From Whitmania pigra (Eukaryota; Annelida; Clitellata; Hirudinida; Haemopidae): DNA of 64,000 bases. The first letter of the stretch is position 1, and each line of letters starts with the position of its first letter. The translations under genes were made by a program, and so were the position numbers. The notes below the pieces were generated by a model. That model worked only from the letters and a program-made list of their open reading frames with translations. It made no database searches and had not been told where the DNA came from. The stretch is from assembly GCA_021613335.1 (NCBI GenBank), contig JAJTWR010000471.1, positions 62,001 to 126,000 on the forward strand, given 5' to 3'. Shown piece after piece: positions 12,078-63,979 of the stretch.

Positions 12078-12718
12078 CGCAAGCAAGTTCGTGACGAATA
12101 TCCAAGTTGAAACTTTGAAGTTTTACCATGTCGTACCGATTTTGTGTATGGTCGAATGCATTGATCAGGTATATGGTATCATTCATTGATATAAAACCCC
12201 TTTCAATTACGTAATCCGCAATTATATATTTACACATTTGTAAATAATTATCATTAGCTTTGGTGCAACAATCGTCAAAAAGTTTACGTAAGTAAGACTT
12301 TAGTCTTTCATATGAAGTATTATGTTAAAGAATGTTTATATGATAATTTTATATGATAATTTATCTTCTTGTAATGTAAACCCAAATGCCACTTTATTCC
12401 ATTGCACAGACTGAGGGCAATAATTGACTGGAGATTTCTGAATATGGCCGTCATAGTAACAAGTTTTGACTTTCTACACCAAAGAAAGCAAAACGCAATG
12501 TTATATTACATAATAAGATTGCTTACTTATAATATTGGCAAGAAAATTGCACCTAAATTAGAAATCTAGGTAACTCAAGTGTCATAATAGCATCAATATT
12601 AACGATATAAATCCTTGTTGAACGAATAATGGTGGAAATTTCAAAATTATAAAAATGGTCTTGCCTTCCACATTGTCAACAAGAACGAAAATTGATCTAA
12701 TAAAATGTATCTCAACAT
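12078..12718 (-). pseudogene. ADAM pseudogene A0 (5' exons only)
   Basis: Three relic exons are homologous to A2: a start exon (ATG at 12718; reading frame broken by small indels after the sixth codon), a propeptide exon at 12473-12393 (starting KVKTCYYDGHIQKSP; a 2-bp deletion relative to A2 then shifts the frame), and propeptide exon 12199-12078 (GFISMNDTIYLINAF) with its GTGAGA donor. The A2-like exons between the first two, and everything after the third (catalytic, disintegrin, cysteine-rich, C-terminal), are absent. The CRE-like element present upstream of A2 is mutated here. This is a dead remnant of the gene that pairs with A1, as A2 pairs with A3. Confidence 0.88.
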
Positions 12719-12824
12719 TTGACTGCTGTTATAGTCACATTCATTGATGACTTCTTAACGCTGTGACGACGCTCTGTTATTTGTGTTTTAATTTCTTTGG
12801 GGCTTTTTAAAAGTAAATTGATTT

Positions 12825-15800
12825 TTAATGGAGGTAGAAAGAGAGAGCCAAAATGAAGACAATGACATCTTGAATGACAAAGTGAACACTCCCATTTCGC
12901 AAAGCCTGGTTGCAAGAATTCATTTGTAGAATATTTGCCAATCTAAATACATTGAAAGAGGAATGCTCACTTCAATATTTGGTCTAGCAAATCCAGAAAC
13001 CATAGCCTGGTCGTACATATTCAATAAGGTGTCAATTAATAGATATATACAGTAAAGAATTATTTCAGAATTATGCTCAACTTACAGATGTCCTTGCAAT
13101 AAATTCTTTTCTATCTAAGCATTCTTTGGCGAAACAGAGCTGAAAGGTTTTGAGAAGAAGGGAGAAATGTATTTAAAAAATATTTAAACAAAGTTACAAA
13201 CACACTTAATTACACACATAATCACAACTTTTATAAAAAGGTCAACCCGATGGGATATACTCCCGCTGATGGCTGGCTGTTCCAAAAATTTAGAGCATTA
13301 TTAACGTCACAAAAGAAAGGAATCATCAAGAAGTTCAAAAATAAGGTGGAAATTCAACAACAAAAGAAATAGGACTTCGCTCTTCAGAAAATCCACATGA
13401 GACGATTTTAATTAGTCAGAATATTTGATTTGTAATATATAATATGATTTGTAAGAACGTGTGAATATAGATATGGACTTAGAAGAAGTAATGGTAATAG
13501 GAATAGAAGAAAATATGCGAGGGCCAGAGCACTTCAAAGAAAATATTTTGGGCGTGGTTCTGGAAGCTTCAGGTCTATAAATGTCGACGGACTGAAAACT
13601 GTATGAGTGAATATACAAATATATGAATGAACGCTTGACAAATTTATTAAATGAATGAGGCAATAAATTGTTTGAGTATTTTTACATAAAGATAGCAATC
13701 AGAAAGTCTGCCTTCGTGAGTCTCATTAAAGGGTGGACAAATGAATCTACCTTGTCATCTCCACATTTGGAACCGTCTGGAACGTAATCGAGATGGCCGG
13801 AGTTGAGGTAAAAAAACATTGAACTGCAAGTTACGCTGCCAATACTTAACTGAAACCAATTCTTGAAAGGCCTAAAATTGTTGTTGGAAATTGCTCGTGG
13901 CACATTGCAAAGCAGCTTACCACATTCTACATTTCTGAAATATCCGGAGATAGGGATGTGACAGTCGATATGAAATTTGTAGAAAAACAATTACTTCTTA
14001 TCACACTTGTAGAACGACATAAATTTTCTGGGATCGTGTCCACAATTAAAATGGTTGTTGCCTTCTTGGTTTTTATTGTAACATTTAATGGGAGATGACG
14101 GAACGCGCGCTCCAAAAAGAAAAGAACAAGCTTTATCTCTCGAAACGCATTCTCCTTTGTAGCAATAATTACCGTCCTACAATAAAGTGTTTGCAATTAG
14201 AAAATTTTTAGAATGTGTTACAAGCGAAGCAATAAATGTCAAATCTCACCGTGCAGACTTTTGCGTTCGGAACCCATGAATCCTTGGGGCAGAGATTCGT
14301 AGTTCCATCACAATACTCTTGGATGTCACATTCTCCTTTCGAAGATCTGCAGACCACGCCATTTTTCTTGAACTGCTTGGACAAATAAAAATAAAAATAA
14401 AAAACCAACAGAATTAATCATAACGTCGCTTTTTCAAATGCATCGCTATTTGACAGACAGGGACCCGTCGTTTTTTTATGGCTTGCTCGAGTCTTAAAAA
14501 CTGTTTATCGCTTCTTCATTACTAAATTGACATAGCTGAGGGACCCACGTTCTGCCTAGTCTCGAAATTTCTGTCGGCGGCCTATTGACAGATACGAAAT
14601 ACACACACCTAGCTAATATTTAGTTATCGCTTTAATTTTTAATTAATCAGTTTTAAATTCCAGTTAAAATCCATATGAATTACTTTTACCTTACAGTTTG
14701 GAATATCACAGCATGAACCTTGGGCACATGACTTGTCACGTACGAGTTGACATGTCTGGTTATCGCAACAGTCTTCATTGCAGAGCTTGTGAAATAAATG
14801 AAATGCTTTCAAGTATTTAACTTATTTAATATGTAAATTTTAGTAATTAGTATCAATATTCAGAATGTGCAACGTTTATGATGATAATGATGATGACTGA
14901 AAATATTAACAAAAATAATAATTTTAATAATGGCCCAGCTATATAGACGTTCTAATCAAAATTAACTTTACTTCTTTAATAGCATTTAATAATTGATCAT
15001 GTTTTCAGACCTCGTCATTGGAATAAAGTACATTATTTATATATTGCATTATTGGTCAATAATGTAACAGTCTTGTTAGCTTTTTAATCTCGAACGAAGA
15101 GCAAGTTGGTCTGTCTGTTTTTTGTATCTTATTCTACAACACAGGAATTAGTTTGACGAAAGTTTTTAGAATGATACTTTGAGCATAAGATGTGGTCACA
15201 AATGTGGAGGAAAAGTACTTGAACTGCTTTTAAGATGTACTACTTTATCTTTTTATTAACTTCATACTTTAAAACTCTATTTCTAATATAAATAATATTC
15301 ATATGATTATATTTAATACATCCATAATAGTGATATCCGTGTGTCTCTCACATATGAAGGGAATCTTCCACAGTCGCATTGTTCCATTGGATCCAGGATT
15401 CCGTCTCCGCACATTGAATCAGTCATTCCGTTCCCTCCGTCATACAAACAAAGACTCATGCTTCTCACCGATGATCCAATGATATGTGCAATCGAACAAT
15501 CTGACCATGTATATGCATTTCCAGTTCTACAAGAAAAAAGATGAGAAAGAATTTGAGCATTTGACGTAAAGTTTGATATATAGTTTTGTGATTAATTAGG
15601 ATAATACATTATTAAATAATAATTTCTTATTGAACAAAAAGAAGAAAGTTTAAAAGACTCTAAAACAGCGAATCTCAACCTGGGGATCGCCTTACGTTTT
15701 TGCCAGGGGTTGCCTAGGACACTGAGAATTTAATAATTTTTTAAAATATTTTTAAAAGACAAAACCTTATCCTTAATCTTACTAGAATTTTGAGCAAGAT

Positions 15801-18800
15801 GCTTTTTATAGTGCAAGCATTTTTCGGCTATTATAACGCTCAATGTCGGCTGTCCTAATCATCTAAATATGCAACGGACGTTAATAAAACATATTTCGGG
15901 CCGTTTGTTGGCGATAATGTGACGTTTAGTGACTGGCTTGTAGGCTGGTTGGATACAAAGTAGCAACTGTGGTCGGAACTTGGTGCAGCCAACTACCGCA
16001 TTTTCACCCATATTACACGCGTGTTATGTTCTATTTTACTTACCGCGCACCCCCCTATAATCGTGCTATAATCGTATGCGTGTTATGCTAGATTAAATTT
16101 ACATGAATTTGATTTCCGACCAATAAAAAATAAAAACATTTAAATGATAGCACAGACTGCTGATTGTTTTTGTAAAAGCTTTAGACTATATTTTTAATTT
16201 TAAATAGTTTATAATTGATTGGGCGTTAGTGCATGTGACAAAATATTCACGCTAATCATTGCTTTGTCCAGCTCTCGAATTTATGACGTCAACTTGAATT
16301 TAACATAAATCAATTGATGGTAACTATAGGAAACTTGTAGGGTGTTGTACTATTTTATGAATTTTCATCATAATTTTTCAACTCTTTGTTACTCATAATT
16401 ATAATTGGAGCTAATGTTTTCAGTTTGTGTGACAATGTTTTGTTCAGCACTGGTGGTTCAGACAGCTTTGGCTGGTGCTGTTTAATATTTTAATAGTCAA
16501 ACATCACATGCATGGAGTTATTGTAGCAAATGTCTTCAATCTCTTAATGGTCTTGCTATAAAAACTCTTTGAACTTCTCAAAAGCATCGAATTATAAAGG
16601 TTATTGTACATGAGCTGCATTTCATGCTCAGATCAATGATCCATTTATGGTTCTTGAAAGGGAGACTTTAACCTTGAAATCTCATGAAATTTCATGTTTT
16701 AATTGATGTACGGTTTGGACCTCAACAATGCTATACTTTCCATTGAAGCTGTGTCTCACAGCATGATGCATCTGATTTACTTCATCATCTACTCCAAGAA
16801 TTGATCTCAAATATTCAAAAATGTCTCTTAAGATTTGTACATTTAAAATATGTGATTTCCATATTTAGGGAGTTATGGGACACAGAGACTTGTTAAGCGG
16901 ACTCTTTGCAGCGTGGAATTGGTTAACGAGTTCGTTACCGACCTTTGAAGTATTGCTTCACTTTTGTCTTACAAATTATTATGCGTAAACAATATGCATT
17001 CCAAAGTAGGAAGTTGATGCAAATCTTAAGATAAAAATAGTTTCGAAGAAGATTTATTTGATTAAAGTCCGTTGCATAAAGTACGAGGAAGAATTGAAGA
17101 GAGAATGCAATATCGAAGCGACCAATTTTGGTCAATTGCAGCGAGCTCATGAATCGTTAACCAGTTCTTTGAAGTTTTTAAACAATTTATTAACAGACAT
17201 TCAAAAAAACAATCATAAGACCAATAATTATTCCTCATCATCAGCTAAGCCTTCAAATCCTTCAAACGTCTAACAGTCTTCATATTCATTTTCGGCTCTT
17301 GCCGGATCACAGGCTAGTTCAAAGCCCGGGTGGTCACTTTACTCCTTTCCTGTAGACTTAATGCCAGCATTTCTAAAGCCACTCAGAATCAAATCTGGCG
17401 ACACTTTGTCCCATGCTCGTGCAACCCATTTGCACACCTCGGAATGCAAGGCCTTCCTGTCTCGTCCAGATGGTGTGTGAGTGTGTGTGCCATCCATGAA
17501 TGGATGCACCATTCCTTCCTCTCAGATCTGTCAATTTCTCAATGATTTGTAGTTGCAGTGTGGATGATAGACCTCCCGGAATGATTGCAATGTGACATCC
17601 GCTTAAGTTGAGCATCTTCTTAACTGACTCATCTTTATGAGCAGTCATTGCATTCATGATCAACCGCGAGCTCTTTCAAAAGAATCCCCTCTTTTGAGAA
17701 CATTTCTGAATCCTGAGCTTCATGCTAAAAATTTTTCGCATTGTCTCTTGAAAATCAATATTGGTTTTGACTTGGTTCCAGCCGCAGAGCATCCAAGTAT
17801 GACTGTGAAACATGTACGTTCGTAACCACTTGTTGTTATTGCCACAGTTCTGGCGCCAGATGCTTTCACTAGCGGGAATGTCAAAAGCTATCTCTTCCTT
17901 TGTTCCAAGACCCATAGCTTTAGATCAGACTCTAACTTTGCCATTTCGCATTTTGGCCAAGGTATGCACGTTTTCTCAGGTTCAGTTTCTCAAGCAATCA
18001 TTCCTTCTTTCTCCATTCGCGAACCGACACTTCATTAACGTTGAACTCCAGAGCAGCTGCTCTGTTACCTTTGTCTTTTGCTCTAGAAATGACTTGAAGC
18101 TTGTAGGCAACAGTGTACGAGTTACGTTTATCAGCCAATTTCTTATCGACGTCGATATTTCAATCTATTTATTTATTTGATTATAGTCCGTTGCATGACT
18201 AAGATGATTTTGACGTATATTTCAATCAAGAGCACTTCTACCTATATATCACTGTATTTATCACTTCAAGCATCAGCCGCTCAGCCAACGGAAGATTTTT
18301 TTACAACTTTTATATTTGATTGTTTTATATATTAAAAACTGCTTCAATTTAATATTTTAATATATATAATTTTAATTTAAATGTTAAATTATTTTAGCCA
18401 AAAGAAAAAAAAGGCGTCTATTGGTGCGTGTTATAATCATTTGGTGTTTTATAAGTGATTTTTTACATAAATTGGAAAAATTGCGTGTTATATTCGTCCG
18501 CGTGTTAAATTCGTCTGCGTGTTTATTCCGTGAAAATAAGGTAATTATGTTATTTGATAATGTCCATGATAAGGAAATGTTTACATCTCTTTTCGGTTAA
18601 GAGTTTGTTTGGTAGTGAACACGTTTTTTGGCTGTTACCATCTTGAATTTAGTAAACACCGCCATTTCCCTGAAACTATTGCAATGTCTGGAAACTCAAA
18701 TAATGTTACAAAATAAATATTTTAAAAACATGACAATATTTCTCATGTTTTGATCTGTGAAACTAACTAAATTTAATATTTAGAAATGAAAGGTAACAAC

Positions 18801-21800
18801 GACAATGATGCCTGAGTGAAAGGTAGCCCAAAATTTTGTTGTTGAGAAGTTGCCGCAGCACGGGGTGGCGGCATCTCAAACGTTGAGAACCGCTGCTCTA
18901 GACGTATTGAACTATCTGCATGAGAGCAATGGAAAATGGCCTTCAAACCTATGACGGAAATAAAATCTATAAAGATCGGAGTGCAGTTAGACTCAATGTA
19001 GAAAAACACCCAAATTGTCTGCTCACTTTTTTCTTAAAGCTCACTCCCAATATTCGACTAGTCGTGAATAAGGCTGCGATATAGCAGGTGAGCAAATACT
19101 CAACTCATCAGAAGAAACACTGAAACTTTTGTACAGGAGATTTGATGACCCTTCAGATACATTGACCAGTAAGTCCCAATACCAGAAACTAAAAAAACAA
19201 AAAGACAGGAAACAATTGGCGGAGCCTCGTGCGGTCACCGAAAGCTTACGAAATTGACCCGTTGACAGTAAAAGCATCGAAAAGGAAAAGATCAGCAGCT
19301 TAGCAAGAAGTTTTGGGATCAACGCCGGGAGTGCGTCAGACTGCTACTCGGATCCATAATCATAACAGGTCGAATAATTTATTTTGAAGTCAATAAGAAC
19401 CGAAGTCAGTTGATGTTCAACATCACGAGATATAAAAGTCAAAAGACAATTTGACCTTTGGAGAAATACGAAGAGGCTTGATCGAAATGTGATCAAAAAT
19501 ATTTAATAAATTTAATTGTTTGCCGAGATTACGACCTTGCTTTTGTTATTATTAATATTAGTGTTTTCGTTTTGTTAATCATATTTAAGAAATATAAATT
19601 TTTTGACATATGTGGATAAGTATTTACGAGACGTGGGCCCCCATTATGCACTGGACATTTTTTGGACATTTACATTCTTCGTAATCTTGATCATGATGAA
19701 GTCCGAAGACATGGCCGATTTCGTGAGCTGTAGTGACAGAAGCCTGAAATCCCACGGGAGACCCCTTCGATTAAAAATAATTTTAATTAAATAAAAAGTT
19801 TAGTATTAACTCGATTCATTAATGCTTAGCTAGATGGCGAGAACATGACTTCGAATATAATTCCACTTAAACAATAGTTTAATCAATAGTCTAAATGTAG
19901 TATTTCTTACCTGTATAACGGCAATGGAACTAAATGTATTGCACATGTTGCTAGCATAGGCCATTCCGAGAAATTGAAGATTTTTGGGATTCCACCTTTT
20001 AGATGAATCATCACCTTTATCAAATACGTTTTGGACATAATTCATAGGCTCAAACACCAAATTGTGACTCACATTACAAGAACGTCCACATCATGTCCAG
20101 TCCACTTGCCGTAAAAGTTATTTCTATAAATATTCCAGTTCGCCAAAAAGTTAGCAACTGTACCATTCGAAGGCAGCGTATTGTTTTCGAGTATTGTTAT
20201 ACCGGTAATCATCAAAACTATGTTGAGAGAATGGTACAACTGAAACAAAATTACTTATCTTTCATTTGTCCTATCGACTAATTTCTGTTTACTAAAAATA
20301 ATTATACAAGACTAGCTGCATTAACGATCTCTATGGCTCTTTGGATAGCCCTTTCTTTGTCGAAATTCATATTTGCAATCTGCAATTGTGTAAACGAACC
20401 AATGAGCGAACCTCTAAACATCACCATTTTTATAATAAAAAAATTCTTTAAAAAAATTCGACTGTCTAAATGAATTGGATGGTGATTGAAGATGGATGGA
20501 GTTCTCATTTCCAATAAATCAAACTCACGTATGTGGAGTCAAGAGCCAAAAATACTTCGACGATCTTCGTTTTTGTTTCGAATGTTTTAAAAACTCTCTA
20601 GAATAACGACACGTAAGGTCTAAATTTATTTCTATAATTCATCATTGGTTGCATCAAGTTCTGCTTTCCATAGTGGAAAATAAATACTCAATTTACTACA
20701 AAAACAACCTTCATTCTTGAAACTGGTTTCTTTAGTTTCTTTGGGGTACTTTCATTGTCTGAAACCAAATTATCATGATGATTCCCATGTTCGGCATGAA
20801 ACGAAACTTCAAACTATGTTGAATCAAATCAGTCACCACAGAAATACTTCCGTTCCGTCTCACTCCTTTCGATGTAAACATATTTCCACTTGTTATTCAA
20901 CTTCTCTGCTGGGTGGAGCTCAAACATGGAATTGTTCATCATAATTGATCCGCTACAGAATAAACACCAATTATGTACTTCATCGTTAAAAAAGTCATTA
21001 TACTGACTCTTGTTGAATATTTTGTAATAAATTGTATGACTTTAAGAAGCGAACCTCAATCCGTTGCAGAGACTAACTGCCACTTTTGAAGATTCATAGT
21101 TGATTACGTGACCGTAGTAATAGCACAGAAAATCGGTCTTCAAGTAAAAATTTCGATCAGGGTCCTAATCTCTTATCAACATTAATAACAATTTCATGGT
21201 TTCTAAATATAAATCAGTTTAACCAATTAGGTTTAATTTCAAATAAATTCAAGTGATTCAAGTGATGAATGTTTGTGAAATTGCTTAGCAATGAATGTTA
21301 TAATAAAAAAAGACGCTCATTAAATTAATTTAACTCATACCTTCTTGAATGTTCTCTGAATGACTTCATCTTCTGTGCCTTCAGTTTCCGTGTAATTGTC
21401 CGAAATCAGAAGCCTGTTAATTGGCGTTATGTTTTGGGTTAATTTCAAGTCGTGCGAAAGTAAAAGGTTGGAAACAAATTTTTGAATATAAAATTTATAC
21501 TATAATAATAGTAATCCATGTAGTTCGTTAGAACAAATATATTATGTGTCTTAGAACTGATTAACTTAAGTTAAGTGTTTAAAGGATTTGAGATACTTTA
21601 GGATGCAAATCTTCTGGGCTGTCTGGACTATGTCATTGTTCTATAATGTTATTAACTACTACGCAGAAAAAAAAACTGAATGTAAGCCTAATTATTTATT
21701 GCTTGGTTATTCTATACTTACATAGTAATTAGTCCTAAAACATTAATCTAATATAGTATATATAATTTTGTTTTATTATACTTCTATAATATAAATGATC

Positions 21801-22534
21801 TGCAAACTTATTTCTTTGCAGATCCAAAAGAATTAATCCGCCACTGAATTTCAGTTGAACAAGGATTTGTGGGTACATGACTCTCTGAAACATTTCCAGG
21901 TTATATTTCAATTGTTATTTTCATTTATTCATATTTAGGAAGGATGGAGTAAAACAATTTTATTAATTCATTTTTTAAAGTTTAATTGGCGTGTTGATGA
22001 TCTTACTCCAGGGTCAAGAGAATTTTCATCCTCCATAAGGAAATTGATCTGAGCTAAGGTGCGCCAGGCTTGTGTTTGTGCTTCGGATAAAAATTTGGAG
22101 ATATCTATACTATCTAATGCAAATGGCGGCACTAATAAAATCAAGATGTATTAAAATAATTAAAAAACGTAACGCAGTACATCACGTTGGCACCTAGTTG
22201 AATTAATGAATAGGAACCCATATTACTTTGGAAGGAAACAATGACCAAGATACGAAGGATGAGAAAAACAATCTTTAGAAATTATGTCTATCATTATAAT
22301 TTTGTCGTTCACATTTCTAATAACTTAACATTTGTTAGAAACAACTGTTTTCATTATCATCATCATTAACTCTATTCCGATATTTAAGTATATTTTGGCT
22401 AATTAGAAAGTAATTTATTAATAACGATATTAAATTAGGAATCTTTCATGAATACAAATACCTGAAGATATAAAGATTATTAAAAATAGAATGAAGAACC
22501 GTAAAGGCTCCTTGTTAATGTTCTTATGCATCAT
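12825..22534 (-). CDS. ADAM-family metalloproteinase-disintegrin A1, complete
   Basis: A zinc endopeptidase of the reprolysin/ADAM family, presumably acting at the cell surface or secreted. Twenty exons join in frame to 689 codons: 22534-22462, 22113-22007, 21884-21808, 21413-21341, 21164-21055, 20952-20837, 20758-20709, 20597-20529, 20379-20308, 20239-20073, 19995-19911, 19764-19628, 15526-15352, 14785-14690, 14375-14250, 14176-13995, 13934-13751, 13139-13086, 13006-12971, 12905-12825. Residues 1-24 are a signal peptide; 25-202 the propeptide with a late Cys (KYFC, a possible cysteine switch); 203 to about 400 the catalytic domain with HEIGHVFGLHHD at 347-358 and Met-turn CIMG. The disintegrin domain spans about 418-511 (CRSSKGECD lo op, CPKD), then the cysteine-rich domain to about 633. 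The C-terminus is hydrophobic (VIQDVIVFILALSFYLH) with no EGF or cytoplasmic tail. Some introns are only about 75-80 bp. Intron 12 carries a 3.2-kb transposon. Confidence 0.92.
13412..13663 (-). mobile_element. LINE ORF2 C-terminal fragment (A1 intron)
   Basis: An 83-codon frame with the pattern PKIFSLKCSGPRIFSSIPITI followed by a basic FTRSYKSY tail, as at the C-terminus of CR1/Jockey-like LINE polyproteins (FSLK.HGPKIWNSIP...FK..LK). An almost identical copy lies at 32126-32377 in the same intron of A3, so insertion preceded the duplication. Confidence 0.75.
15996..18541 (-). mobile_element. pogo/Tigger-type DNA transposon, nested and degenerate
   Basis: The terminal repeats are CCGCATTTTCACCCATATTA on the left and, reverse-complemented, CCTTATTTTCACGGAATAAA on the right. 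Both are flanked by TA dinucleotides, the usual Tc/mariner-pogo target duplication. Repeated ACACGCGTGTTA-type motifs follow each end. The transposase gene runs leftward from about 18.14 kb. Confidence 0.8.
17339..18145 (-). pseudogene. pogo/CENP-B-like transposase relic
   Basis: A helix-turn-helix segment (RNSYTVAYKLQVISRAKD, then NRAAALEFNVNEVSVREW) is followed by a stop-interrupted linker. A DDE-1 region follows (GTKEEIAFDIPASES, then NAMTAHKDESVKKML and IIPGGLSSTLQ, the usual PGG-x-Ts-x-LQ block). The C-terminus in a third frame reads WVARAWDKVSPDLILSGFRN. Frame changes and in-frame stops show it is dead. Confidence 0.85.
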
Positions 22535-25747: not shown

Positions 25748-28700
25748 TTAAATCATTTTATTTGAAATACTATCCATCACTGGTTTTACGACTAACATGT
25801 TGAGGCGTGATGCACCACATATGCAATAGATTTCTGTTCCAGTCCACATTAATCTCAACTGACTGTGATACAGATTATTTTCTAAAAGATCTATTGCAGG
25901 TTTTATAGAAAATTCCGGAATCATATGAAGCAGAAAATAAAAAAAAATGGCGATCATGGCTGTATCTATGTTTAACTGAATTGCTCTAGCAATTACGGCC
26001 TGATTATAAGAAGTGAGGTTAGAATATTTTGTAACTAAATGAACTCATCTAACGCTCTTCCTTCTGTTAGTTTGAATTATAAAATCTCTTTTTATGATGC
26101 ATTTTTTGTTAAGGCAGAGCTGTAACCGTTTAAATCTTTTAAATGTCTTACATCAAATTGAAATGTCAACTAAAATCTAGAAAAGAAGTTTATATGCCTA
26201 GGGTCGTAATAGGTAAGTAAAACTTTATAGACCTTTTTGATAATCATTTACATAGCAGTGCAAACTGGATTGCGAACACGACAGATTACGATTGTTATTA
26301 CCGCCGCTGACCGATAAAGATGAACTAATAAACCTACTAAAACAAACGGATATTAATACGCAAAGTATATTTTTAGTCAAATGGTTTTAAATTAATTATT
26401 CAATTATCATAATAATTTTTTGTTTAATTAAAATTGTGTTATTAGTAAAAGCTATTTAATATTCATGTCTTCTCTAATCGGATGCTATGCTTTAAAAATT
26501 ACCGAGCTCGAGATACTTGTTCAGACTATAGGCCTTAGAATTGTAAGAATAGCTTAAACAGTCCCCGTCAGTTAAACTTGGAAGTTTTTTTGACATTAGG
26601 CATCCAAGAGTTAAATACAATCTGTCATTTGGAGCAATTTATTCTTAAACCACTATAAATAAATGTCATGCTGCAATGCTTATTTACAACCTTGTGTTCC
26701 CTTAAAGTTCTGCAGTTCAACAGACATCCTAGTCGAGTTTTGCTGATGATTTTTATTTGCTACAAACAATGCATCGGTTTAAAGAGGTGTTGTTAATTTT
26801 CAAAAATGTTTCCGTTGTTAAATGGTCATCGGATGATGAGAAAGTGAGTGAAGGACGTTGCAATTGATAACCATTGGGGCAACACATTGCTTCTCCCAAG
26901 CGACTTGACATAGATCTGGTTTAAAAAGACAACGTTGGTATAATCAAGAAATATGAGACATGAAATAATGTTAACAAATCGTAATAGTTTTAACTTTCAT
27001 TAATTTTAAACCGTGTTAACTAAAATTGCTTAATTATTTCTTGTTTACATTCTTTGCAATTAAAACGACACACCACAATCATAATTTATGATTCTCGACC
27101 TATCCATCGACATCATCAAAAACGTCATCGTCATCATAATTTTATCATCAAATCTAACTCTTGGTGCTCTGTGCTGATTGGACAAAATCCATCTGCGATC
27201 CACGCATTTTCGATTGAAACACATCTAAAATGAATATTAATAATAAATAAAAGATCATATTAACAAATAATATTAATAAGCAAGAACAAATCCAATTTAA
27301 TTTACCCTATTTTGTCCGCATGCAGCACCGTTAGGTACATAGCCGGGATCTTCAGCCCCAAGGACGTTGTAATACAAAGCCGTGCAAGAATCGTTTTGAT
27401 AGCCAAGCCTGTGAGAGTAAGCCGCTGGGTAAAACCTCATATTGGACAGTTCAGGGTTAAAGTTGACCGAACTGTTTACGTTGCAGATGAGCAGGCCACA
27501 ATAAATATCCCTGAGATTAACATCAGTTAATTGGAATTATCATAAATACATCACTTCTGTGAGATTCATCGCTATAGTGAATGGTAACAGTCGTCAACAG
27601 TTTCTAACCTTTTCCTACACTTTTCGTAGCTGTGCTTCGATAGATCTTTCACTGCGCAGTTTCCGTAAAGAGATCCTTCGGCGTTGAATTCGAAGCAAGA
27701 ATTCGAGCCTAGTTTGGCACGTTTGCCCCAATTCTTGGAACAGATTTCATCCAGAATAATGCACTTGCTGTTGAAGCAATAGCTGCTTGACTGCAACAAC
27801 ATCTCGGTCGATAGTTATAACCATCGTTGTCATCAACATCAACATTGACATTAACAACCGTAATCATCAATCACTCACCCCACATTCCTGCCCATCGCGA
27901 AGTCCTCTGTCAGCTGGACAATCAGCAGACATTCCGTTGCATAATTCCTGGTAGTCGCATTCGTCATTCGATTGTCTGCATATTGTGTTGCTGCTCTTAA
28001 ACTAAAAAAAAGAAAGTTGCCATCTTCATTTCATCTTGAACCAAAAAAAAACTCCAGACATTTACCGTACACGTTTTCACATCGCAACATTGTCCCGATG
28101 AGCACTGCCAGTTGAATCTCAGAATGCATAGAGATTCGTCGCAGCAGGTTCTGTTGCAAATCTGTACATAAATTATTACCTTAACTTTGTATAAAACGCC
28201 TTGTTATTTGTTATCATTTCGACAAATCCGATACGGAAATAGTTATTGCTAAACAAATACACATTAATTCAAATTCTAGTCCTATCTCACATCTATCGGC
28301 AGCTTTCCACAATCGCAACCTTCTCCCAGCTCAACGATGCCGTTACCACAAACTGCGACTTTTCGAAGGTCAGTAAGGTAGTTCTCCAGACAGATATCAA
28401 TGCCGTTGTGGTAGCTGTTGAGCAAAGAATCTTCTGAGCAGGACGAAAACGCGTAGGTAGCTCTGAAACGAGGCAACTCGAAATTTTGATTATTAAATAT
28501 TATTTGTAGAAGGCATAGCAATGATTATTAAAAAAAGTAATTAAGTTAAAATTCTATGGATAATTCACTTCATTGAAAAGACATGACTCATCAAGCAGAC
28601 TCTCTGAGGACAGTCACAACTGCCAAATGGCGTGTAGGCCATGTCATGAGAAATCCCGAGAGTATGCGCCAACTCGTGAGCCAAAATAGGTCCAGCCAAA

Positions 28701-53900: not shown

Positions 53901-56900
53901 CTATAAAAAACATCTCTTTCTTTTCTGAGATCATGCCAGTAGTATTTATAGCCATCTGGACCATGAAGGTTGAATTTTTTTCATCTGTGAAAATTACGCG
54001 TTCCCATCTTTCGTTGTAGTTGAAACTCTCTTTGGCCCAAAGGAGGCGTTTTTTCTTGTGATGGACTTTCAACGCTGGAGCTCGCTTTCGCATTTCGTAT
54101 TTCAGCTGTTCACTTGAATTAAGAAAATTGCAGTCCTAATACGGAGATCCAAATCCAGCTTATCTTTTAGATGTTTACACGAATATTCTCCTTGTGAAGC
54201 CTCCCTGATGAGACTTCTCTGAATCTGATTCGAGAGTTTTTGCTGTTTTCCGCGCTTATACTTCTTCCCATATGAGTCTGGATTACCCAAAAAACATTTG
54301 ATGACAGCTCTTGACCTATTCAACTTATTTGCAATCTTTTTTATTGAATAGTTTGCCTTCCCAAAGGCCTTAACTTGTTCTCCTTCTGTCAAATTTGCTT
54401 TCTTCTCCATTATGAAAAGAATGTGAAAGGAAGTTTTGAATTTCTATATAATAGCCTTCTTAATGACAATTTAATGTTTGATCCTTCTAATAACGCCTTG
54501 AAATTGATGAAACGAACCCAAACCGGAAACTGTCGTAATAATATTTCTAGCACTGTAGTTATATATAAAATCATAAGCTATACACATCCACGCAATAAAT
54601 ATTGTTTGTACGACATTTTGAATAGTAAATAAAGTAATTTGAAAGGGCGTGTGTTTAACTGAGTTAGATCCTTGATAGATGAAGGTATGGAGGAGTAAAG
54701 TCTTGGGCCATAGCATTGAATTGAAAATAATTTAAGTGTAGATTTGGAGAAAGACGAACTATATTTATGTGTATTACTTAGAAAGTGTGAAGGATTATTG
54801 TAATTAATGTGATATGAAAAAACCAGAGAATATTTTGGGAAGAGATTTGAAATCACATGAAAACATGAAAAGAGCAATTTGTAAATTACGAATTTGTGAT
54901 ATATTTAACAGACTGTTGTTAGAAAAGACAGAAGCAGTTGATGATGAGGGTGATAATAAGAAAATTGTTCGTACAATCCGTTTTTGCAATATATTCAATT
55001 GATGTACATGTGTTATAAGTAGCTGCCCATATTATATTGCAGTACGTTAGATAAGGGTAAATAAGAAAGAAATATAACAATTATATATATATATATATAA
55101 TTTATATTTTATATAGAGCAACTTTTGCGTCAATAAATGGCCGAATTCTAGAAATTACACCAATGTTCTTAGAAACATGATTTTGAACATAAGAGATATG
55201 TTTGAGCCAAGATAAGTGCTCATCAATAAAAACCCCCAAATATACACGACACTCTGTCAAAATCTTAGCGATGATTTTAAGAGAGATTTCATTTCAAAGA
55301 GTTAGCTGGCGATCGTGGATACAATGACTGCTCATAAAGAGGAATGGTGCTCAGATGATGCTTTAAGATGGTGCTAATCTCAAGCCGATATGCATGTATT
55401 CCGAGGTTTGCACATGGGTTCCACGAGAATAGGACAAACGGTCATCAGATCCGATTCTGAGTGGCTTTAGAAAGACTGGCATTAAGTCCGCAGGAGAGGA
55501 GGATAATGTCCTCTGACAGATTGTTTGAATGTACATTATGCCGTGTTCGCAACCCACCTTGCACTTTCACAAAACGCCCCTTGGACGCAACGCTATACAA
55601 ATGGTGGAGCGTCCCTGACGCTTAGGCTAATGGCACTTTACCAATAAGCATATTATATTATTACATTATCAAAGGACTGTAAAGAAATTAAAGACCAAAT
55701 CCACGCTGTAATGGTTTCCGCTTAACATGTCTCTTTGTAACATAACTCTCTAATTATGTAAATCACATCTTTTAAATGTTAAAATCTTGGGATACATTTT
55801 TAAAAACAATTCGTGACCATCAATTAATTTTGGTTAAATACAAATTCGTGGCAATGATTGACAAGACAAGGATTAGCGTGACTATTTTGCTACGTGCTTT
55901 TGTAAGCATATATCGGTAGTTCTCTATGCTCAACAATTATAAACTAAGATTAAAAATACAAAGTCTAAATAATTAAAAAAAAACAATATTTGAATTATTA
56001 TATTATAACGCAATGTTTATATTATTAACAAAAGTCTGTTCTATCACTTATTTTTTTTGTTTATTTTTACTGGTTGGAAATCAAATTCATGTAAATTTTA
56101 CGAAACATGCATAAGCGGTGCATAGTAACGTGCATGTAATAAGAGTGAAAATGTGGTAATAATATTTTATGTTTCTATACGTTGTCAATAATTTGATTTA
56201 ATTATTTACATTAATTAAAAATTCTAGAGCCTTCTAACTGAATATAGGTTCCCATCAAACAGCCCGACGTTGAACATTTACAATCACTATACGACTCGTC
56301 GTGGTGAACCCCAAATGTGTGGGCAACTTCGTGTGCCAGGGTAACGGCGGCCAAGAAACCGTTAGGAATGTCCTTGCCGGAAAGAATTAGTTTTTAAAAA
56401 TAAATTTTCTTAGCGATGATTTCATAAGTACAGAAATCACAAGAAATCATTAAAAATAGATAATAGTCATTCAATTGTTATTCAAAGCATTCTTGCCACG
56501 ATGAAAGCCACAGAGTTTGACAATTTGCACATGACGCCTTCCAAGGCCACTCCAATTGTTTTTCCAAAATTATACTTCCTGTCAAAGAATCAACTCTTGA
56601 ACAAGAAAACATTTTAGATTTTATTTACTTATTACTTAAAGGTCAAACATAATACTCACGTCACCAGAATACCTAAATCGTGCGCAGGCCATTCTTTTAA
56701 CCGTTGACTTCTATAATCCTTCCACAGGTGAATAAATTCATGGGGCTTTGGATTGTAAGGCACTCCTTTGCCTCTTAATGCTGTGATACCGGTTATTACG
56801 AGGACAATGTTAATTTGATTGTATAACTGCAACAATAAATAAAGTTGCAGTTAAATTGATTTTGAGTGTTAAGTCACGTCATGTCACAACACTTAACAAT

Positions 56901-59783
56901 ATTCAACTAAATATCTTACAAGGCTTGCGGAATTTATGATCGCTTTACTTCTTTCAATGGTCTTGTCCGTATCATAGTTCATTGCTTTAAGCTGCGGTTC
57001 GTGAAAATATATCAAAAGAAACAAAAGAATTTTATAATTTTAATTAAATTATTAAGAAATTTATTCTACTGAGTTCTACCAAATAATTAGATTTTTTAGA
57101 GGATCGGAAGTTGAAGTGATCAAGTGGCATGAAAAACACTCACAAGGCTCTCGTCAAGGGCCATATATACTTCGACGTATTTTTTGCTTGAATCGAATAG
57201 ATTCGCATTTCTCTGAAAATTTAAAATAATTTTTTTTTGTATTGCAAATAATTTTGTTTGATATTAAATGTATCCCAAGTTAGCTATTGCCATCTTCCAA
57301 CATCAAATTCCCCTCAAAAATACAATAGCAATGCTGAATTATTTCACTTAAATTCCGACGTTAAGAAAAAGCACAGCACTGCATCAAATAGTAAATGATT
57401 ATTAAAAAATGACTTTCATTCTTTGGCGCAGTTTCTTCGGAAACCTTCTGGTGTTTTTAACGCCTGAAAGCAAAATAACATATAAACGATGATCGCAATG
57501 ATTGGTTGTTCGCGATGAAACTTCAAATTGTACTTCATTTATATAACGCCACATGCATAGCGTCAGAGGCGCTTCTAGAAAATATTTATATAGAGCTCAT
57601 TACCAAGGGCGCTTGTGTTTAAGTCCAAATCATCTTAGTTGTGCAACGGACTCTAATCAAATAAATAAATAATAAATAAGGGCAGAACAAGCTGAGTTTT
57701 GAACACGACACATTAAGTTGTTGTCATTGTGCCGTGTGCAGGCCTGTAACCCATTCGGCCAAGCTGCGCGCCGGGCGCTCAAACAAAGTTGAATCAAATC
57801 AGTCACCACAGATATACTTCCGTTGCATTTCACTCTTTTCAATGTAAACATATTTCCACTTGTTATTCAATTTCTCTGCTGGGTGGAGCTCAAACATGGA
57901 ATTGTTCATCATAATTGATCCGCTACATAATAAAAACCAATTCTTTATTTCATCGTTAAAAAATCATTATATTGATTCTTGTTGAATATTTCGTAATAAA
58001 TTGTATGACTTTAAGAAGCCAACCTCAACCCTTTGCAGAGACTAACTGCCACTTTTGAAGATTCATAGTTGATTACGTGACCGTGGTAATAGCACAGAAG
58101 ATCGTCCTTCAAGTAAAAATTTTGATCAAGTGAAGGTCACTAAACTCTTAACAACAATAATAACAATTTCGTGGCTTCTATATTTAAATATAAATCAGTT
58201 TGACCACTTAGGTATTTTTATAAATAAAAATGAATGTTTGGTGACCGTCAAAATAGCCCGGCGACAAAAAACCGCCCCGTCTAAGTAGCCCAGCGACAAA
58301 ATAGCCCGTGACAAATAGCTCAGTGTAACTTGGAAAAAATAATTTTTATGAGTTGAATACATTATTCGAAACTGATTCCAAATTTCATTCGATTTCAGTT
58401 GTTTGAATGCTTTTACGACCGTTTTGAGTTTAATCGGTGCCAGGAAATTTCATTAAGTGGAAAATTTATTGTTCTAATATTATTAGGATTCCAGCTAATC
58501 CTTCAGTTTCTGTTTTCCCGATCTATGCACTTTTAATATAACTTATCGATTGACAGCATATACGAACTGCACAAAAAAATCAGACACCGAATATTTAGCA
58601 GAAACTCATTAAGCCATGTCGGTTCCTTTTATTGATAAATTTCTTTTGATCCTTCTCTGAGTTCATGTTGCAATGTGCAAAATGAAGAGTTTGATTTGGA
58701 GTTGCACTTTAATATAGTTTATCGTAGGTTAAGTACGTGAAAAAAATAAAGCTGTGGCCGGGTACAGATGGTTTCAAATAAATCAAAAGTAATGTTTGTT
58801 TGAGTAAACAGTACAAAATAAAATAAATTGCAGCTAAGCATATTTAAGTAATTAACTCAAACCTTTTTAAATTTCCTATGAATGGTTTCGTTTTCTGTTG
58901 TTTCAGTTTCCAAGTAATTGCTCGAAAACAAGAAGCTGCGAAATCAGTCAATATAGAATTTATAAATGTTATTTTATTAGAACAACGTTATTAAATAGCA
59001 TGTTAAAAAGTGAAAGGAATTGTTTACTATTTTAAAACAAATTTCCTAAGTTATGCTTGTTTGTCGAAATTATTATTAAAAATGATCTGATTACATATGA
59101 GAAATTACAAATGGTATGCTAATATTATCTGTTATTATTTATTTTTATCACACTGTTATAACACAACATTATTTCTGTTTACATTTCTAATCCAAGATCG
59201 AAGTGAAAATTTTATCACAAACTGCTTAGACTACGGTCCGCAAAATTATGGTTCATGAATATTCAAATCTCTACGAAATGTCATAAAAATTACCCTTTTC
59301 TGCAATACTTCAATTATTTCAGTATTTATCAAAAGTGGTTGCTAACTTGTTCCTAATCAGATTTAATAACATGATTCCTCCGCTAAACTTTAGCTCAACA
59401 TGGAATTCCCAAGGCATGTCTCTCTGAAAGATTTCAATATTTCAATTTTTTAATGTATTTGACATGTTGATGGCATTTATGAAGCACCGATGGTCCTACT
59501 TTAGTGTCTAGAGGTCTTCCATCATCCGTGAAAAATTTAATCTGAGCTAAGGTGTGCCAGGATTTTGCTTCAAATGCAAATGAAATTATTTAACTGTTAA
59601 ATGATCAAAAACTTTATCTAACTGGAATGAATACTGCGTCTTGTATTTAGGCATTTGAGATTAATGTAGAACATTAAGAATGGTAAAATAGCGATGTTGT
59701 CATTAGTTATTTAAATTACCTGATGATATTAAAGATGTTACAAATAATATAATTATAAACTTAAAACGTTTCATGAGGAACAT
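50926..59783 (-). CDS. ADAM-family metalloproteinase-disintegrin A4, complete
   Basis: Nineteen exons join in frame to 656 codons: 59783-59720, 59567-59500, 59423-59347, 58935-58863, 58106-58024, 57922-57807, 57463-57414, 57212-57144, 56991-56920, 56826-56660, 56578-56497, 56372-56239, 53028-52854, 52513-52418, 52007-51885, 51812-51631, 51574-51385, 51136-51071, 51009-50926. It has a signal peptide (MFLMKRFKFIIILFVTSLIS), a propeptide with KYIC and a basic end (KKLRQRMK), and a catalytic domain with HEVAHTFGVHHD (about 321-332) and CLMG. The disintegrin loop is CRPSTGDCD, followed by the cysteine-rich domain and hydrophobic C-terminus MIAIFLNFIYCFL. Intron 11 starts with GC (GCAAGA). Exons 5-6 are nearly identical to A3 although the rest is diverged. 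Intron 12 holds nested pogo and Tc1 elements. Confidence 0.91.
51215..51345 (-). repeat. SINE-like repeat in A4 penultimate intron
   Basis: Homologous to 26225-26330 and 61420-61550; carries CTGTCATGTTCGCGATCCAG (B-box-like) and a tRNA-like upstream stretch GAAAGGGTTACGTACC. Confidence 0.55.
53100..53215 (+). mobile_element. pogo element fragment, 5' part (plus orientation)
   Basis: Matches the transposase linker of the 15996-18541 copy read in its coding direction (GCCCAAATGCGAAATGG... GGATCTTGGAACAAAGGAAG). The rest of this copy continues after a nested insertion at 55370-55500 and ends near 56156. Confidence 0.7.
53270..53392 (-). mobile_element. LINE/SINE 3' tail, minus orientation
   Basis: Reverse-complement copy of the tail at 47740-47890, inserted inside the interrupted pogo element. 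Confidence 0.65.
53401..54535 (-). mobile_element. Tc1-like DNA transposon, 1135 bp
   Basis: Both ends read CGACAGT (CGACAGTCCCC on the left; CGACAGTTTCC on the right after reverse-complementing). Each is flanked by a TA target duplication (53399-53400 and 54536-54537). It holds a single transposase gene. Termini are short or diverged beyond the first ten or so bases. Confidence 0.88.
53480..54410 (-). pseudogene. Tc1 transposase with two frameshifts
   Basis: Frame 1 (54410-54102) is the HTH region: KKANLTEGEQVKAFGKANYS and LNRSRAVIKCFLGNPDSYGK. Frame 2 (54093-53875) carries the first catalytic Asp in VIFTDEKNSTF. Frame 3 (53878-53480) has FQHDNAPIHISKATREFF and MDWPECSPNLNSIENVWG, giving a DD34E triad. 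Three different frames imply at least two frameshifts, so it is inactive though otherwise well preserved. Confidence 0.92.
54578..55000 (-). mobile_element. LINE ORF2 C-terminal fragment
   Basis: The minus strand reads MNILQKRIVRTIFLLSPSSS, LQIALFMFSCDF and then LFSIQCYGPRLYSSIPSSIK, the usual QKRxxRxI...LFxY...W.SIP end of CR1/Jockey-like LINEs. The tail overlaps the right flank of the Tc1 element. Confidence 0.75.
55370..55500 (+). mobile_element. pogo transposase C-terminal fragment
   Basis: The plus strand matches the C-terminal exon of the 17.3-kb copy (TTCCGAGGTTTGCACATGGG, then CCGATTCTGAGTGGCTTTAG and GGCATTAAGTC). It pairs with 53100-53215 and with the terminal repeat at 56040-56156 as one split plus-strand pogo copy. 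Confidence 0.75.
55500..55625 (+). repeat. SINE copy next to pogo fragment
   Basis: Contains the B-box-like CCGTGTTCGCAACCC and the body segment CGCTATACAAATGGTGGAGC shared with 48050-48190. Confidence 0.6.
56040..56156 (+). mobile_element. pogo 3' terminus
   Basis: Reverse-complemented, it reads CCACATTTTCACTCTTATTA ... ATTTACATGAATTTGATTTC, matching the left terminus of the copy at 15996, and is followed by TA. It is the distal end of the split plus-strand pogo copy. Confidence 0.7.
57560..57795 (-). repeat. tRNA-derived SINE copy in A4 intron 6
   Basis: The minus strand has GCTTGGCCGAATGGGTTACA (A-box-like) and TGTGTCGTGTTCAAAAC (decayed B-box), then an AT-rich (TTAT)n stretch and AGTCCGTTGCACAACTAAG, a 3' segment also present at 17.05 and 18.18 kb. 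It directly abuts the A3-like conversion tract. Confidence 0.65.
57788..58215 (-). other. A3-like tract inside A4 (exons 5-6 and their intron)
   Basis: Exons 5 and 6 and the intron between them match A3 43525-43930 and A1 nearly base for base, for example the coded NNSMFELHPAEKLNNKWKYV and GHVINYESSKVAVSLC. A4 exons 3, 4, 7 and 8 are strongly diverged from A1/A3. A gene-conversion or exon-copy tract is the simplest explanation. Confidence 0.75.
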
Positions 59784-60560: not shown

Positions 60561-61130
60561 ATCAAAAACATTTGGAAAAGTCTGAAAAATAGCATCAAAA
60601 CTTGGGAAATATGCAATTTTTTATTCCTCTGACGCTCTGCAAAGTGATGCAAACAATTAAAAGTTAACAACCAATTTGAACCCAAGAAACCAAAAATTAT
60701 AGTTGATCTAATAATGTAAGTTTCACTCTTCTATAGCTTACGTATTTTATTCAAAGTGTCCGGTATTTCTGATATGAGTTTGCTACGTTGTTGTGAATTT
60801 GCTAATTCACGGTTCTCTTGAGAAGAAGGTCAAGTAGGCTTCTATAAAAGTATTGTTATAAAACAAATTCAAATGGGAGCGACTTGCTTGTTTGTTTAAG
60901 CTTCATCCTTGTAAGTGTTTGTTCTGCAGTGATTCTAAATTATAACAATTAGTAAGTAAAACCAAAAAAGATTAATAATGCTGCCTTTTAACAAATTTAA
61001 AAGTATAATAAGTTGAGGCATGATGCCACATCTGCAATAGATTTCTGTTTTAGTCCACAATAACCCCAACTGATTATGATGCAGATCACTTCCTAAAAAG
61101 TTCTATTAGACAAAGTTTAATTTTCCGAAA

Positions 61131-63979
61131 TCATATATAGCGGAAAACAACGATCGCAAAAATGGCGATCCTTTTTGGATTTGTGTTCAGTCGAATTGCT
61201 CCAGTAATGGCCTGGTTAAAAAAAGTAACGTTTAGAATATTGTTAACTAAAGAAATCAAAGTCAATCATCTTACGCTCTTCCTTTCGTTAGTTTGAATTA
61301 TAAAATCTTTTCTGTCGATGCATTTTTTGTTAAGGCAGAGCTAAAACAGTTTAAATGTCTTATCGAAATGAAATGTCAAATAAATTATAGACACGTAGTT
61401 AATATGCATAAAATGACAAGCCTAAATGTAAAGCGTAAGATACGCTTTTGACAATCATTTACATTGCAGTGCAAACTGGAATGCGAACACGACAGGTCAT
61501 TTCTGTTGTCATTATCTCCGCTTGCACGTACGTAACCCCTTCAGCTTACTGACGAACAAAGAACTAGCAAACCTACCATGTTATCTCCACATTTGGCACC
61601 GTCAGGAACATAACCGAGATCAGGGACTCCAGGAAAAAGGTCGTAAAAAAATGAAGCGCATATAGTATTTCCGCTTGACATAACGTACCAGCCTTCCATT
61701 CTTTTGTAAGATTTTTGTTGTGAGGCTTGGAGAGCATGACACAAGAGCGATCCGCACATAAAGTTTCTGCATTATAAACTTAGAAATTGCCAATGCGCAT
61801 AGTCAAATTTTTAACTTGACGCGAAAAATTCACAGAACAATACTTACTTGTTATCACACCTCACGAATGCGTTTATGTTATTTGGATCACGTCCGCAATT
61901 GTAGAACTTGCTGCCGTTTGTATTTTTATTATAACATTTATCGTCAGAGGCTCGGACACTCGTACCGTATGCTAGAGAACAAGCTTTGTCTTTTGAAACG
62001 CATTCTCCTTTGAAGCAAAAATTGCCACCCTGCCATAAAATGTTTTCAGTTCATTTTCAAAATCTGTTGATTTGTTAAAGGGAATACGGGAATTATATAA
62101 AAAAGTCACTGTGCAGGCTGCTCCATTGGGAATCCATAAATCGTCAGGGCATAGGTTAGATCGTCCATCACAAATTTCCTCAACATCACAATGTTCTTTT
62201 GAAGGCCTGCAAATCTCACCGACATTCTTGAGCTGTTGAATTATAACGAATAGAATCCATCAAATAAAGTTAGGCATTCACAATTTCGATATATCGATCT
62301 ATTAAGTATATTTCAGTCAGTGCCGTCAACAAAAATTTCGGACATAGGAACAGCGGCGACGGACCCCTATGTTAAATTAAATCCCTGAAACCCGGGCAAT
62401 TGCTCCCCCTGCCACCCCTTCCCCGCAGCTCGAATTGTCCGCATGTTATCAAATAGCTTCGAGTCTGTAAAAAAAAAAGCCCTCTACAACGTGCTTTTTC
62501 TCGTCAAGTGCGCCGCGCAGCTTAGAAGGAATATTGGCCGACACTCGAGCCTTTCAAGCGTTAGCCGAAGACAAATTTCTTCAAGGAATTTATCCAAGAT
62601 TCAAGGATCGATGCTTAAAGCGATAAATTAAACTTTCAATTTATTTTGTTAATTGGTCCTAATAATGTTAAATCTCACCTTACAATTAGCAACATCACAG
62701 CATAATCCTTGGGCACAGGACTTGCCAGACATAAGTGAGCATGTTTTTTTATCGCAGCATTTCTCATTACAGAGCTTGAAAAACCAACGAATATTTCTAT
62801 AATTGTGTCTAGCACAGTTATTAGATGGATGGACATTCAATATCCACAATTTTCACCATCATTAAGTTAAAAATCAATATGTGGAGCTATATAAATGAAC
62901 TACATTCACATTTTTACCGGTTGGAAAGTCGAGAAATAGTCAATTCTGTTACAGTAAACATACATGTATGTGATGATAAATTGTCCTTAAGAAATAACAT
63001 TAAGTTTTAATACTAGCGACCATCGCAATAAAAACAAATTCACAAATTCAAAGGTCACATTATTTACAGGTCTTACATGTGAAGGAAAACCTCCACAATC
63101 GCATTGCTCAGCTGAATCTTGAATTCCATCTCCGCACATTGGTCCAGCTGTGTTATTTCCTCCATTGTACAAGCATATATCGGTGCCAGTTTCATAAAGT
63201 CCAACAATTACCGAAAGCGAGCAATCGGACCATCCGTAGTTCGTAGTATCCCTTCGATTGGATTGATAGACATGAGAATTGATAGAATCAGCATGAACAT
63301 TTTTCTTTAATTATATTTAATTGTTTTAAATAATAATTAATGTTCCTAATTATTATCAATTATTTCTACGTAATGGTTTACATTAAATAAAAATTCTACA
63401 GCCTTCTAACTGAATATAGGTTTCCATCAAACAGTTCGACATTGAACATTTACAACCACCGTACGTCTCGTCATGGAGAGCACCGAATGTGTGTCCGATT
63501 TCGTGTGCCAGTGTGGCAGCAGCCATTGCACCGTAAGGGACGTCCTTAGTTTTTTAAACATAAACCTTCTCAGCGAGGATTTCTTAAGTATAAAGATCTT
63601 AAGATATCAATAAAATTGCTTATTTACTAATTTGTTTGAGTCTTATATACCCGGATAATATGTCAAGGCAATTCTTGATCAAACTATTACTTATACTATT
63701 ACTTTACATATTTATATAACTTATAACTACGACGCTCCTGGCGGCGCTAGCTGCATTGCGAACACGTCGCATTACGACCGTTGACATTGACGCCGCGTGC
63801 AAGAGCGCAACCTATTCGGCCAACCAGCATCCTAAACTCTAAACTAAGCCGTTGCTTAATAAAAGATATATGTAATCGTCTTTCAAAGCCTTCTTGCCAC
63901 GATGAAAGCCACAGAGTTTGACAATTTGCACATGACGCCTTCCAAGGCCATTCCAATTGTTTTCCCAAAATCGTACTTC
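61131..63979 (-). CDS. ADAM-family metalloproteinase-disintegrin A5, 5' end outside window
   Basis: Nine exons from mid-catalytic domain to stop: 63979-63898, 63544-63411, 63251-63077, 62774-62679, 62232-62110, 62029-61848, 61766-61577, 61340-61275, 61211-61131. It is the closest paralogue of A4, with exon lengths almost all equal. The catalytic exon carries HEIGHTFGALHD and Met-turn CLME. The disintegrin domain has CRPSKEHCD in the loop; the cysteine-rich domain follows and the C-terminus ends RIAIFAIVVFRYI. The exon at 63898 is followed by a GC donor (GCAAGA), as in A4. The propeptide, signal peptide and N-terminal catalytic exons must lie beyond 64000. Frames are intact in all visible exons. 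Confidence 0.9.
61420..61550 (-). repeat. SINE-like repeat in A5 penultimate intron
   Basis: Same family and position as 51215-51345; contains GAAGGGGTTACGTACGTGC and CTGTCGTGTTCGCATTCCAG. Confidence 0.55.
62508..62548. mobile_element. hAT terminal-repeat fragment
   Basis: Reverse-complemented, it reads CCAATATTCCTTCTAAGCTG then CGCGGCGCACTTGAC, matching the right terminus of the 33277-35952 element. No partner end was found, so it is a solo end. Confidence 0.5.
63725..63840 (-). repeat. SINE copy in an A5 intron
   Basis: The minus strand has TGGTTGGCCGAATAGGTTGC (A-box-like), TTGCACGCGGCG and GACGTGTTCGCAATGC (B-box-like). Same family as 57560-57795. Confidence 0.65.

Follow-up and report, generated by a model that had tools for sequence, protein, structure and literature searches.

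How does a row of neighboring ADAM metalloproteinase-disintegrin genes grow, and which parts of its members stay alike or drift apart as it does so? This question is raised by a stretch of 64,000 nucleotides from the leech Whitmania pigra, hereafter the window, which comprises positions 62,001 to 126,000 of contig JAJTWR010000471.1 (G000:C380:62001-126000) in a genome assembly of 178 Mb and 381 contigs (GCA_021613335.1). Most of a tandem ADAM (peptidase family M12B) array, from a hirudiniform leech, probably lies in this window. The array would comprise six or more apparently competent zymogens, and we consider it probable that it grew by duplication and that gene conversion has acted on a block of prodomain exons shared by its members.

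A six-frame scan of the window for HExxHxxGxxHD located five zinc-site exons, all on the minus strand, at positions 19725, 28678, 42372, 56333, and 63505; a looser zinc pattern also matches at 4174 and 53749, neither of which is a zinc exon of the ADAM kind. A 104-kb stretch, made up of the window and its flanks, was scanned with the exon peptides of A1 and A2, and the order of genes along transcription is A6, A5, A4, A3, A2, A1, and A0. In window numbering, with genes A0 to A5 and all their parts on the minus strand, A1 spans 12825..22534 (signal exon 22462-22534, zinc exon e11 19628-19764, e18 12825-12905), A3 spans 31536..45179 (signal exon 45107-45179, e11 42278-42411, e18 31536-31616), and A4 spans 50926..59783 (signal exon 59720-59783, e11 56239-56372, e18 50926-51009). 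These three are 19-exon ADAM genes with open models and Pfam support. The array extends beyond the window, since only e10 to e18 of A5 lie inside it (61131..63979; e10 63901-63979, e11 63411-63544; open model, Pfam), with the signal exon to e9 outside (64068-66900, that is G000:C380:126068-128900), and a whole sixth gene, A6, lies outside just upstream of A5 (70668-77434). The model of A2 covers e4 to e17 (27159..30730; e11 28569-28714), supported by 578 codons without a stop, by Pfam, and by its place in the tree; further 5' exons would lie above 30730. All six genes A1 to A6 carry HExxHxxGxxHD, and at least six members of the array look able, on the strength of their sequences, to make active enzyme.

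The spliced models show how regular this array is. A1, A3, A4, A5, and A6 each have 19 exons with identical intron phases and a single terminal stop (5/5 models), at 657, 658, 656, 652, and 650 codons including the stop, and the chain of 14 exons from e4 to e17 of A2 is likewise open. These lengths refer to a short e4, which we used for all models because the upstream e4 acceptor puts an in-frame stop in A4 and A6 and A5 has no AG at that place; a longer e4 is possible in A1 and A3, and a longer e1 also in A1, giving 677 codons for A1 and 667 for A3. A preliminary description of the locus had recognized five complete zinc-site exons on one strand, each followed by disintegrin and cysteine-rich exons in conserved phases, and both statements agree with the exon-peptide scan and the spliced models. 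The outer limits it drew also make sense, since 12078 adjoins a piece of A0 e5 (12198-12082) and 63979 is the start of A5 e10. Its count of five tandem copies holds for ADAM genes in the window, but one of these is cut by the window end, a sixth follows upstream, and the set is not uniform: the array is composed of two subfamilies, X-type A1 and A3 and Y-type A4, A5, and A6, plus A2 as a distant ADAM. Its figure of 656 codons for A4 was exact, whereas those for A1 (689) and A3 (about 697) exceed our models whichever acceptors of e1 and e4 are chosen; its figure of about 765 for A2 stands beside the 578 codons modelled over e4 to e17. It had also reasoned that stop codons after correct splicing in most copies would speak against its reading, and no such stops occur in the five full models or in e4 to e17 of A2.

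The domain content of the predicted proteins fits this assignment. Pfam scans covered A1 to A5 only (A1 without its signal exon and e18, A2 from e4 to e17), and in all five proteins Reprolysin, Disintegrin, and ADAM_CR were above the cut-off. Reprolysin (PF01421) scored 101.1, 77.4, 103.3, 101.1, and 93.8 bits in A1 to A5 against a cut-off of 20.8, accompanied by Disintegrin (PF00200) and ADAM_CR (PF08516); the prodomain family PF01562 was at or over its cut-off in A1 (23.7 of 23.7), A3, A4, and A5, the A2 input having begun at e4. The zinc motif is joined by a Met-turn C[IL]M in A1, A3, A4, A5, and A6, and in A2 both were read from the sequence. Each of the five full models has a hydrophobic N-terminus, a KY[FI]C prodomain cysteine, a disintegrin loop of the form [EDH]CD, and, where the prodomain gives way to the protease, a single furin-type R.[KR]R site (RMKR or RIKR). 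No EGF family appeared in the scans of A1 to A5, with A1 and A2 scanned without their last exon, and Rfam at gathering thresholds gave zero matches in the window. When the spliced A1 was compared with a large protein set, it found three matches (E 9.9e-23, 3.4e-10, and 8.8e-4), one fungal and two unnamed.

The layout of classical membrane ADAMs, with an EGF-like module, a transmembrane helix, and a cytoplasmic tail, is not found here, provided that e18 is the true last exon: this exon encodes a short hydrophobic tail, and the five full models stop in or just past it with virtually no cytoplasmic part. The best 19-residue mean hydropathy in the last 80 residues is 2.08 in A1, 2.21 in A3, and 2.08 in A4. 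Since these three tails are clearly hydrophobic, that of A6 is borderline, and almost no cytoplasmic part follows, A1, A3, A4, and A6 are probably tethered, either through a short membrane anchor or through a putative glycosylphosphatidylinositol (GPI) signal, as the hydrophobic tail end would suggest; A5 is perhaps secreted. With membrane-anchored ADAMs such as the ADAM22 ectodomain the array shares the metalloproteinase, disintegrin, and cysteine-rich domains, a signal-like N-terminus, and a furin-type site, but A1 to A5 lack a Pfam EGF-like family and the models nearly lack a cytoplasmic tail. When the part of A1 from protease to cysteine-rich domain is compared with solved structures in the PDB, P-III snake venom metalloproteinases (SVMPs) rank first (3dsl, E 2.3e-48) and ADAM22 follows (1.5e-33). 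Bothropasin, catrocollastatin, and VAP1 of this class have the same order of M12B protease, disintegrin-like, and cysteine-rich domains, an xCD loop instead of RGD, and, as far as found, no EGF module, whereas in the array A1, A3, and A4 (3/5 models) bear a hydrophobic C-terminal tail and the host is an invertebrate.

This likeness to snake enzymes bears on what the array is for. One possible reading, which we hold only tentatively, makes it a salivary, feeding-related set, the leech counterpart of P-III SVMPs, acting on platelets, fibrinogen, or matrix. Besides the PDB matches, it draws on the growth of the array with a diverging active site and on Hirudo, where M12B enzymes are among the major enzymes of the salivary secretion according to PMC7191736; the likeness to these is one of peptidase family and probably of related host group. 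However, the hydrophobic tails speak against free secretion, and the salivary genes could instead be those of the other ADAM clusters of this genome, on C31 and C332/C183. The remark in the preliminary description that local ADAM expansions recur in blood-feeding animals fits the leech host and the M12B enzymes of leech saliva (PMC7191736), but does not extend to a salivary nature of these genes. Somewhat less probable, by analogy, is a role of the array in reproduction or in some other internal tissue, like that of the testis-expressed tandem ADAM genes of amniotes, which arose partly through tandem duplication (PMC4550289). The membrane-type tails of some copies would suit such a role, but the vertebrate testicular ADAMs group with ADAM9 according to the same paper. 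In broader terms, the vertebrate tandem clusters, both ADAM28/ADAM7/ADAMDEC1 and the testicular ADAMs, resemble the leech array in tandem growth and in having pseudogenes among the copies (PMC4550289 and PMC4963849), and differ from it in that the leech array sits in an annelid.

The duplication history of the array can be traced in part. For the greater part of their length, A1 and A3 can be aligned block by block, separated by insertions in some introns, and behind A1 lies A0 (9757..12559), a pseudogene partner of A2 that keeps prodomain exons and the 3' end. A0 is 92% identical to A2 30822-30245, 92% to 27279-27112, and 96% to 27089-26611. Since A1 aligns with A3, and A0 behind A1 is 92% identical to the 5' part of A2 behind A3, the pairs A3+A2 and A1+A0 are block copies, one way or the other. 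A0 has lost the stretch corresponding to A2 30245-27279, which holds e6 to e16; its e4 is split into two halves in different frames, and its e17 is short of one Cys. A 700-bp (AAT)n microsatellite (11073..11772) occupies the gap where A2 has e6 to e16, and an open reading frame (ORF) with a hAT dimerisation domain lies inside the A0 region (10390-10752, minus strand). Downstream of A2 there is also a stray Y-type 3' end with e17/e18-like sequence (25783..26302, minus strand), 86% identical to A4 51312-50788, from which A2 may draw alternative terminal exons. We also weighed gene conversion at the 3' ends of A2 and A4, but the shared block is downstream of A2's own e17, making a stray 3' end the simpler reading.

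A tree of 19 rows, midpoint-rooted only and with several partial rows pieced from tblastn, places the X and Y genes in one group (99/98), with A1 and A3 as a pair (100/98) and A4 to A6 as a weaker group (86/89). The partner of A2 is a C211 gene (95/88), whose row has no zinc exon, and a long-branch warning applies to C211, A2, C349, C327a, and C100. C31b (L102, zinc exon not found), the near copies L109, L111, and L112, L108 (only an e4 match), and L105 (no match) were left out. Elsewhere in the assembly, C31 carries another ADAM cluster, on its plus strand (L101-L107, G000:C31:520001-590000), with four zinc-site exons and, from an additional gene, disintegrin and cysteine-rich exons; near ADAM copies occur on C332 and C183. 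Two of these, L109 (G000:C332:14001-24000) and L112 (G000:C183:1-10000), have an identical zinc-exon peptide, HHIGHNFGLSHD instead of HEIGHNFGLSHD, from which the catalytic glutamate is missing, and are probably inactive as proteases. The preliminary description had proposed a pseudogene and active turnover in the array. The first is A0, with its split e4, lost e6 to e16, and missing e17 Cys; the second is supported by the block duplication with its ruined A0, three close Y-type copies, the stray Y-type 3' end, and the mosaic divergence of A1 and A3.

In this mosaic, A1 and A3 differ by 0 to 35% per 60 bp, in a patchwork. The differences cluster: counted in 50-bp steps, they have a variance/mean of 3.1 and 3.9 (P 0.0005 in both cases, the lowest value that 2000 shuffles can give), and the longest identical run is 258 of 1958 (P 0.0005), or 105 of 2536 in the 5' part (P 0.023). 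Divergence is lowest in e3 to e6 and in most of the intron after e16. It peaks at 35% in e16 of the cysteine-rich domain (A1 13751..13934), where the exon differs by 18.5% and the adjoining intron, 96.6% identical, by 3.4% (Fisher P 2e-10). In the active-site exons e10 and e11 with their intron (A1 19628..19995), each exon is about 23% divergent, with up to 25% per 60 bp, and tracts of about 20-22% are also found in e14, before e17, in the intron between e8 and e9, and before e3. A hypervariable, perhaps exosite-bearing region has been placed in the ADAM cysteine-rich domain (PMC4885070), and the divergent piece of e16 would lie in or just before it, judged by position only.

Positive selection making the exons of A1 and A3 outpace their introns could be suspected here. 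Positive selection with exons diverging faster than introns has been described for snake toxins. Besides the contrast between e16 and its intron, the ratio of nonsynonymous to synonymous divergence (dN/dS) between A1 and A3 is 1.27 in e10-e11 and 1.50 in e15. However, neither ratio is significant (P 0.28 and 0.60), that of e16 is 0.56, and over the whole coding region dN/dS is 0.30-0.62, below 1 in 6/6 pairs computed (of ten possible). Moreover, most of these divergent exons also have an elevated dS (e10-e11 0.22, e12 0.29, e14 0.35, e16 0.33), and the divergent tracts run across exon borders. We therefore regard it as unlikely that the exons diverged mainly through positive selection, and did not adopt this reading. 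Since dS is also high in most of the divergent exons, the divergent stretches are better read as older tracts left between converted ones.

A second and sharper signal comes from the prodomain. A block of 300-450 bp, made up of e4, its following intron, e5, and flank, is nearly identical in A1, A3, A4, A5, and A6, although elsewhere the synonymous divergence between X and Y genes is near saturation (whole-gene dS 1.33 for A1-A4 and 1.18 for A3-A5, the two X-Y pairs computed). By sequence this block is common to all five genes. Its A4 copy (57779..58228) is 89% identical to both the A3 copy (43951-43514, that is 43514..43951) and the A1 copy (21247-20809, that is 20809..21247). Across the six X-Y pairs, 4-6 of 35-36 synonymous sites differ in the block (11-17%) vs 223-240 of 352-358 elsewhere (63-68%). 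Columns fixed between X and Y number 3/293 in the block including its intron, as compared with 85/352 from the signal exon to e2, 14/73 in e3, 21/50 in e6, and 129/505 in e7 to e9. The block intron is 69-93% identical in the six pairs vs 46.8-76.8% in six other introns, most clearly in A4 (91-93% to X) and to a fair degree in A6 (77-90%). Identity is 75-87% in the 90 bp before e4 and falls to 52-63% in the 60 bp after e5.

Sharp-edged low divergence at synonymous and intronic sites, with the synonymous part clear in 6/6 X-Y pairs, is what interlocus gene conversion would leave, and gene conversion is the best reading of the prodomain block and of the A1/A3 patchwork. Strong purifying selection without DNA exchange would explain the few amino acid differences in the block (5-10 of 162-163 nonsynonymous sites), but it is very improbable, because selection on the protein would not reduce synonymous and intron divergence as conversion would, nor account for the likeness before e4 and the sharp fall downstream. 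A special closeness of the A4 block to the X genes was also considered and dropped: the block resembles those of A3 and A1 more than that of A5 (83%), but is equally near to A6 (e4 94.0%, intron 83.2%, e5 99.1%).

Several points weigh against the reading of a converted array of competent enzymes. The Fisher tests of block vs rest at synonymous sites (P 4e-11 to 2e-7 in the six X-Y pairs) assume independent sites, and these pairs have a shared history. The A5 block intron, just 69-79% identical to X, is within or slightly above the range of other introns and thus weak evidence, and another kind of exon exchange could give the same homogenisation. In only a few columns does a single Y gene side with X rather than with the other Y genes (A4 2, A5 5, of 293), so that exchange could have run in either direction. 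Every gene model depends on the chosen splice sites and on homology among the copies, and is least certain at e4, e18, and the first coding exon; the tails of A5 and A6 are weakly hydrophobic (best 19-residue mean 1.00) and borderline (1.69), respectively. Finally, the one hirudin-family match in the assembly, in a hirudin-type gene (L100, G000:C1 near 784192; 28.8 bits, cut-off 25), spans just 19 profile positions (E 2.2e-4); near it lies what we take, by eye, to be a further hirudin-type exon.

The enzymes might work as follows. Each full model reads as a secretory zymogen with a signal-like N-terminus, a prodomain whose cysteine is positioned to bind the zinc, and a furin-type site, followed by the zinc protease, disintegrin-like, and cysteine-rich parts. 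Furin-like cleavage at RMKR or RIKR would release the protease, which could then cut proteins close to the cell surface or extracellularly. The array probably grew by tandem and block duplication, with conversion among the copies holding the prodomain block alike while differences remain in the exons of the active site and in a portion of the cysteine-rich domain, and the outcome may be an enzyme set with common activation and differing specificity. A stronger version, a "shared lock, different blades" arrangement, would have repeated conversion keep an interchangeable inhibitory prodomain block (e4-e5) in five ADAMs under the same activation control, and selection against conversion keep the active-site exons and the cysteine-rich segment apart, widening the substrate range; this we regard as speculative and rather improbable.

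Other features of the window and the assembly touch the array less directly. Between A2 and A1 lies an ORF like an endonuclease-reverse transcriptase, under the Pfam cut-off (24551-25357, minus strand), and the A4 intron between e11 and e12 has pieces of a Tc1/mariner-type transposase (53483-54443, minus strand; DDE_3, HTH_Tnp_Tc3_1). Between A3 e12 and e14 there are two long ORFs with a SAP-like domain (39721-40818, minus strand, and 36960-38255, plus strand, the second below the cut-off), the first of which resembles a retroelement gag by eye; the introns that hold them measure 5026 and 2997 bp, and the matching A1 introns 566 and 317 bp. Antistasin gave 58 matches in the assembly (including L096-L099), which together with the hirudin-type gene point to a jawed leech as the most likely host. 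PF00379, a family searched for as a sign of an arthropod, had zero matches, which carries little weight since the control gave none either. The assembly also has four uninterrupted bacterial-type COX1 genes (L013-L015, G000:C47), with no other found by the COX1 search, and the C115 gene shares as much as 80% identity with COX1 of alphaproteobacteria; the contigs with bacterial-type COX1 are, to judge by these genes, symbiont or contaminant.

The array is real and well resolved, and it belongs to a known kind, the tandem ADAM array. Such arrays are known in vertebrates (PMC4550289, PMC4963849), and M12B enzymes are known from leech saliva (PMC7191736). Passages of the leech genome papers PMC10494388, PMC7303139, and PMC10087013 mention ADAMTS genes or just one Pfam match to ADAM, and a term search of the main text of PMC10887747 and PMC11897028 found neither ADAM nor disintegrin. 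Among the matches listed, in which subscription journals are thinly covered, neither this array nor conversion between ADAM genes of leeches was the subject of any paper. From the exact models given here one can begin to ask which locus encodes the salivary M12B enzymes, and the array is a clear case of paralogous proteases whose prodomain block has had a different history from the parts that bear specificity. Comparing orthologous arrays of blood-feeding and non-blood-feeding leeches would allow a direct test of links among array size, conversion, and diet.

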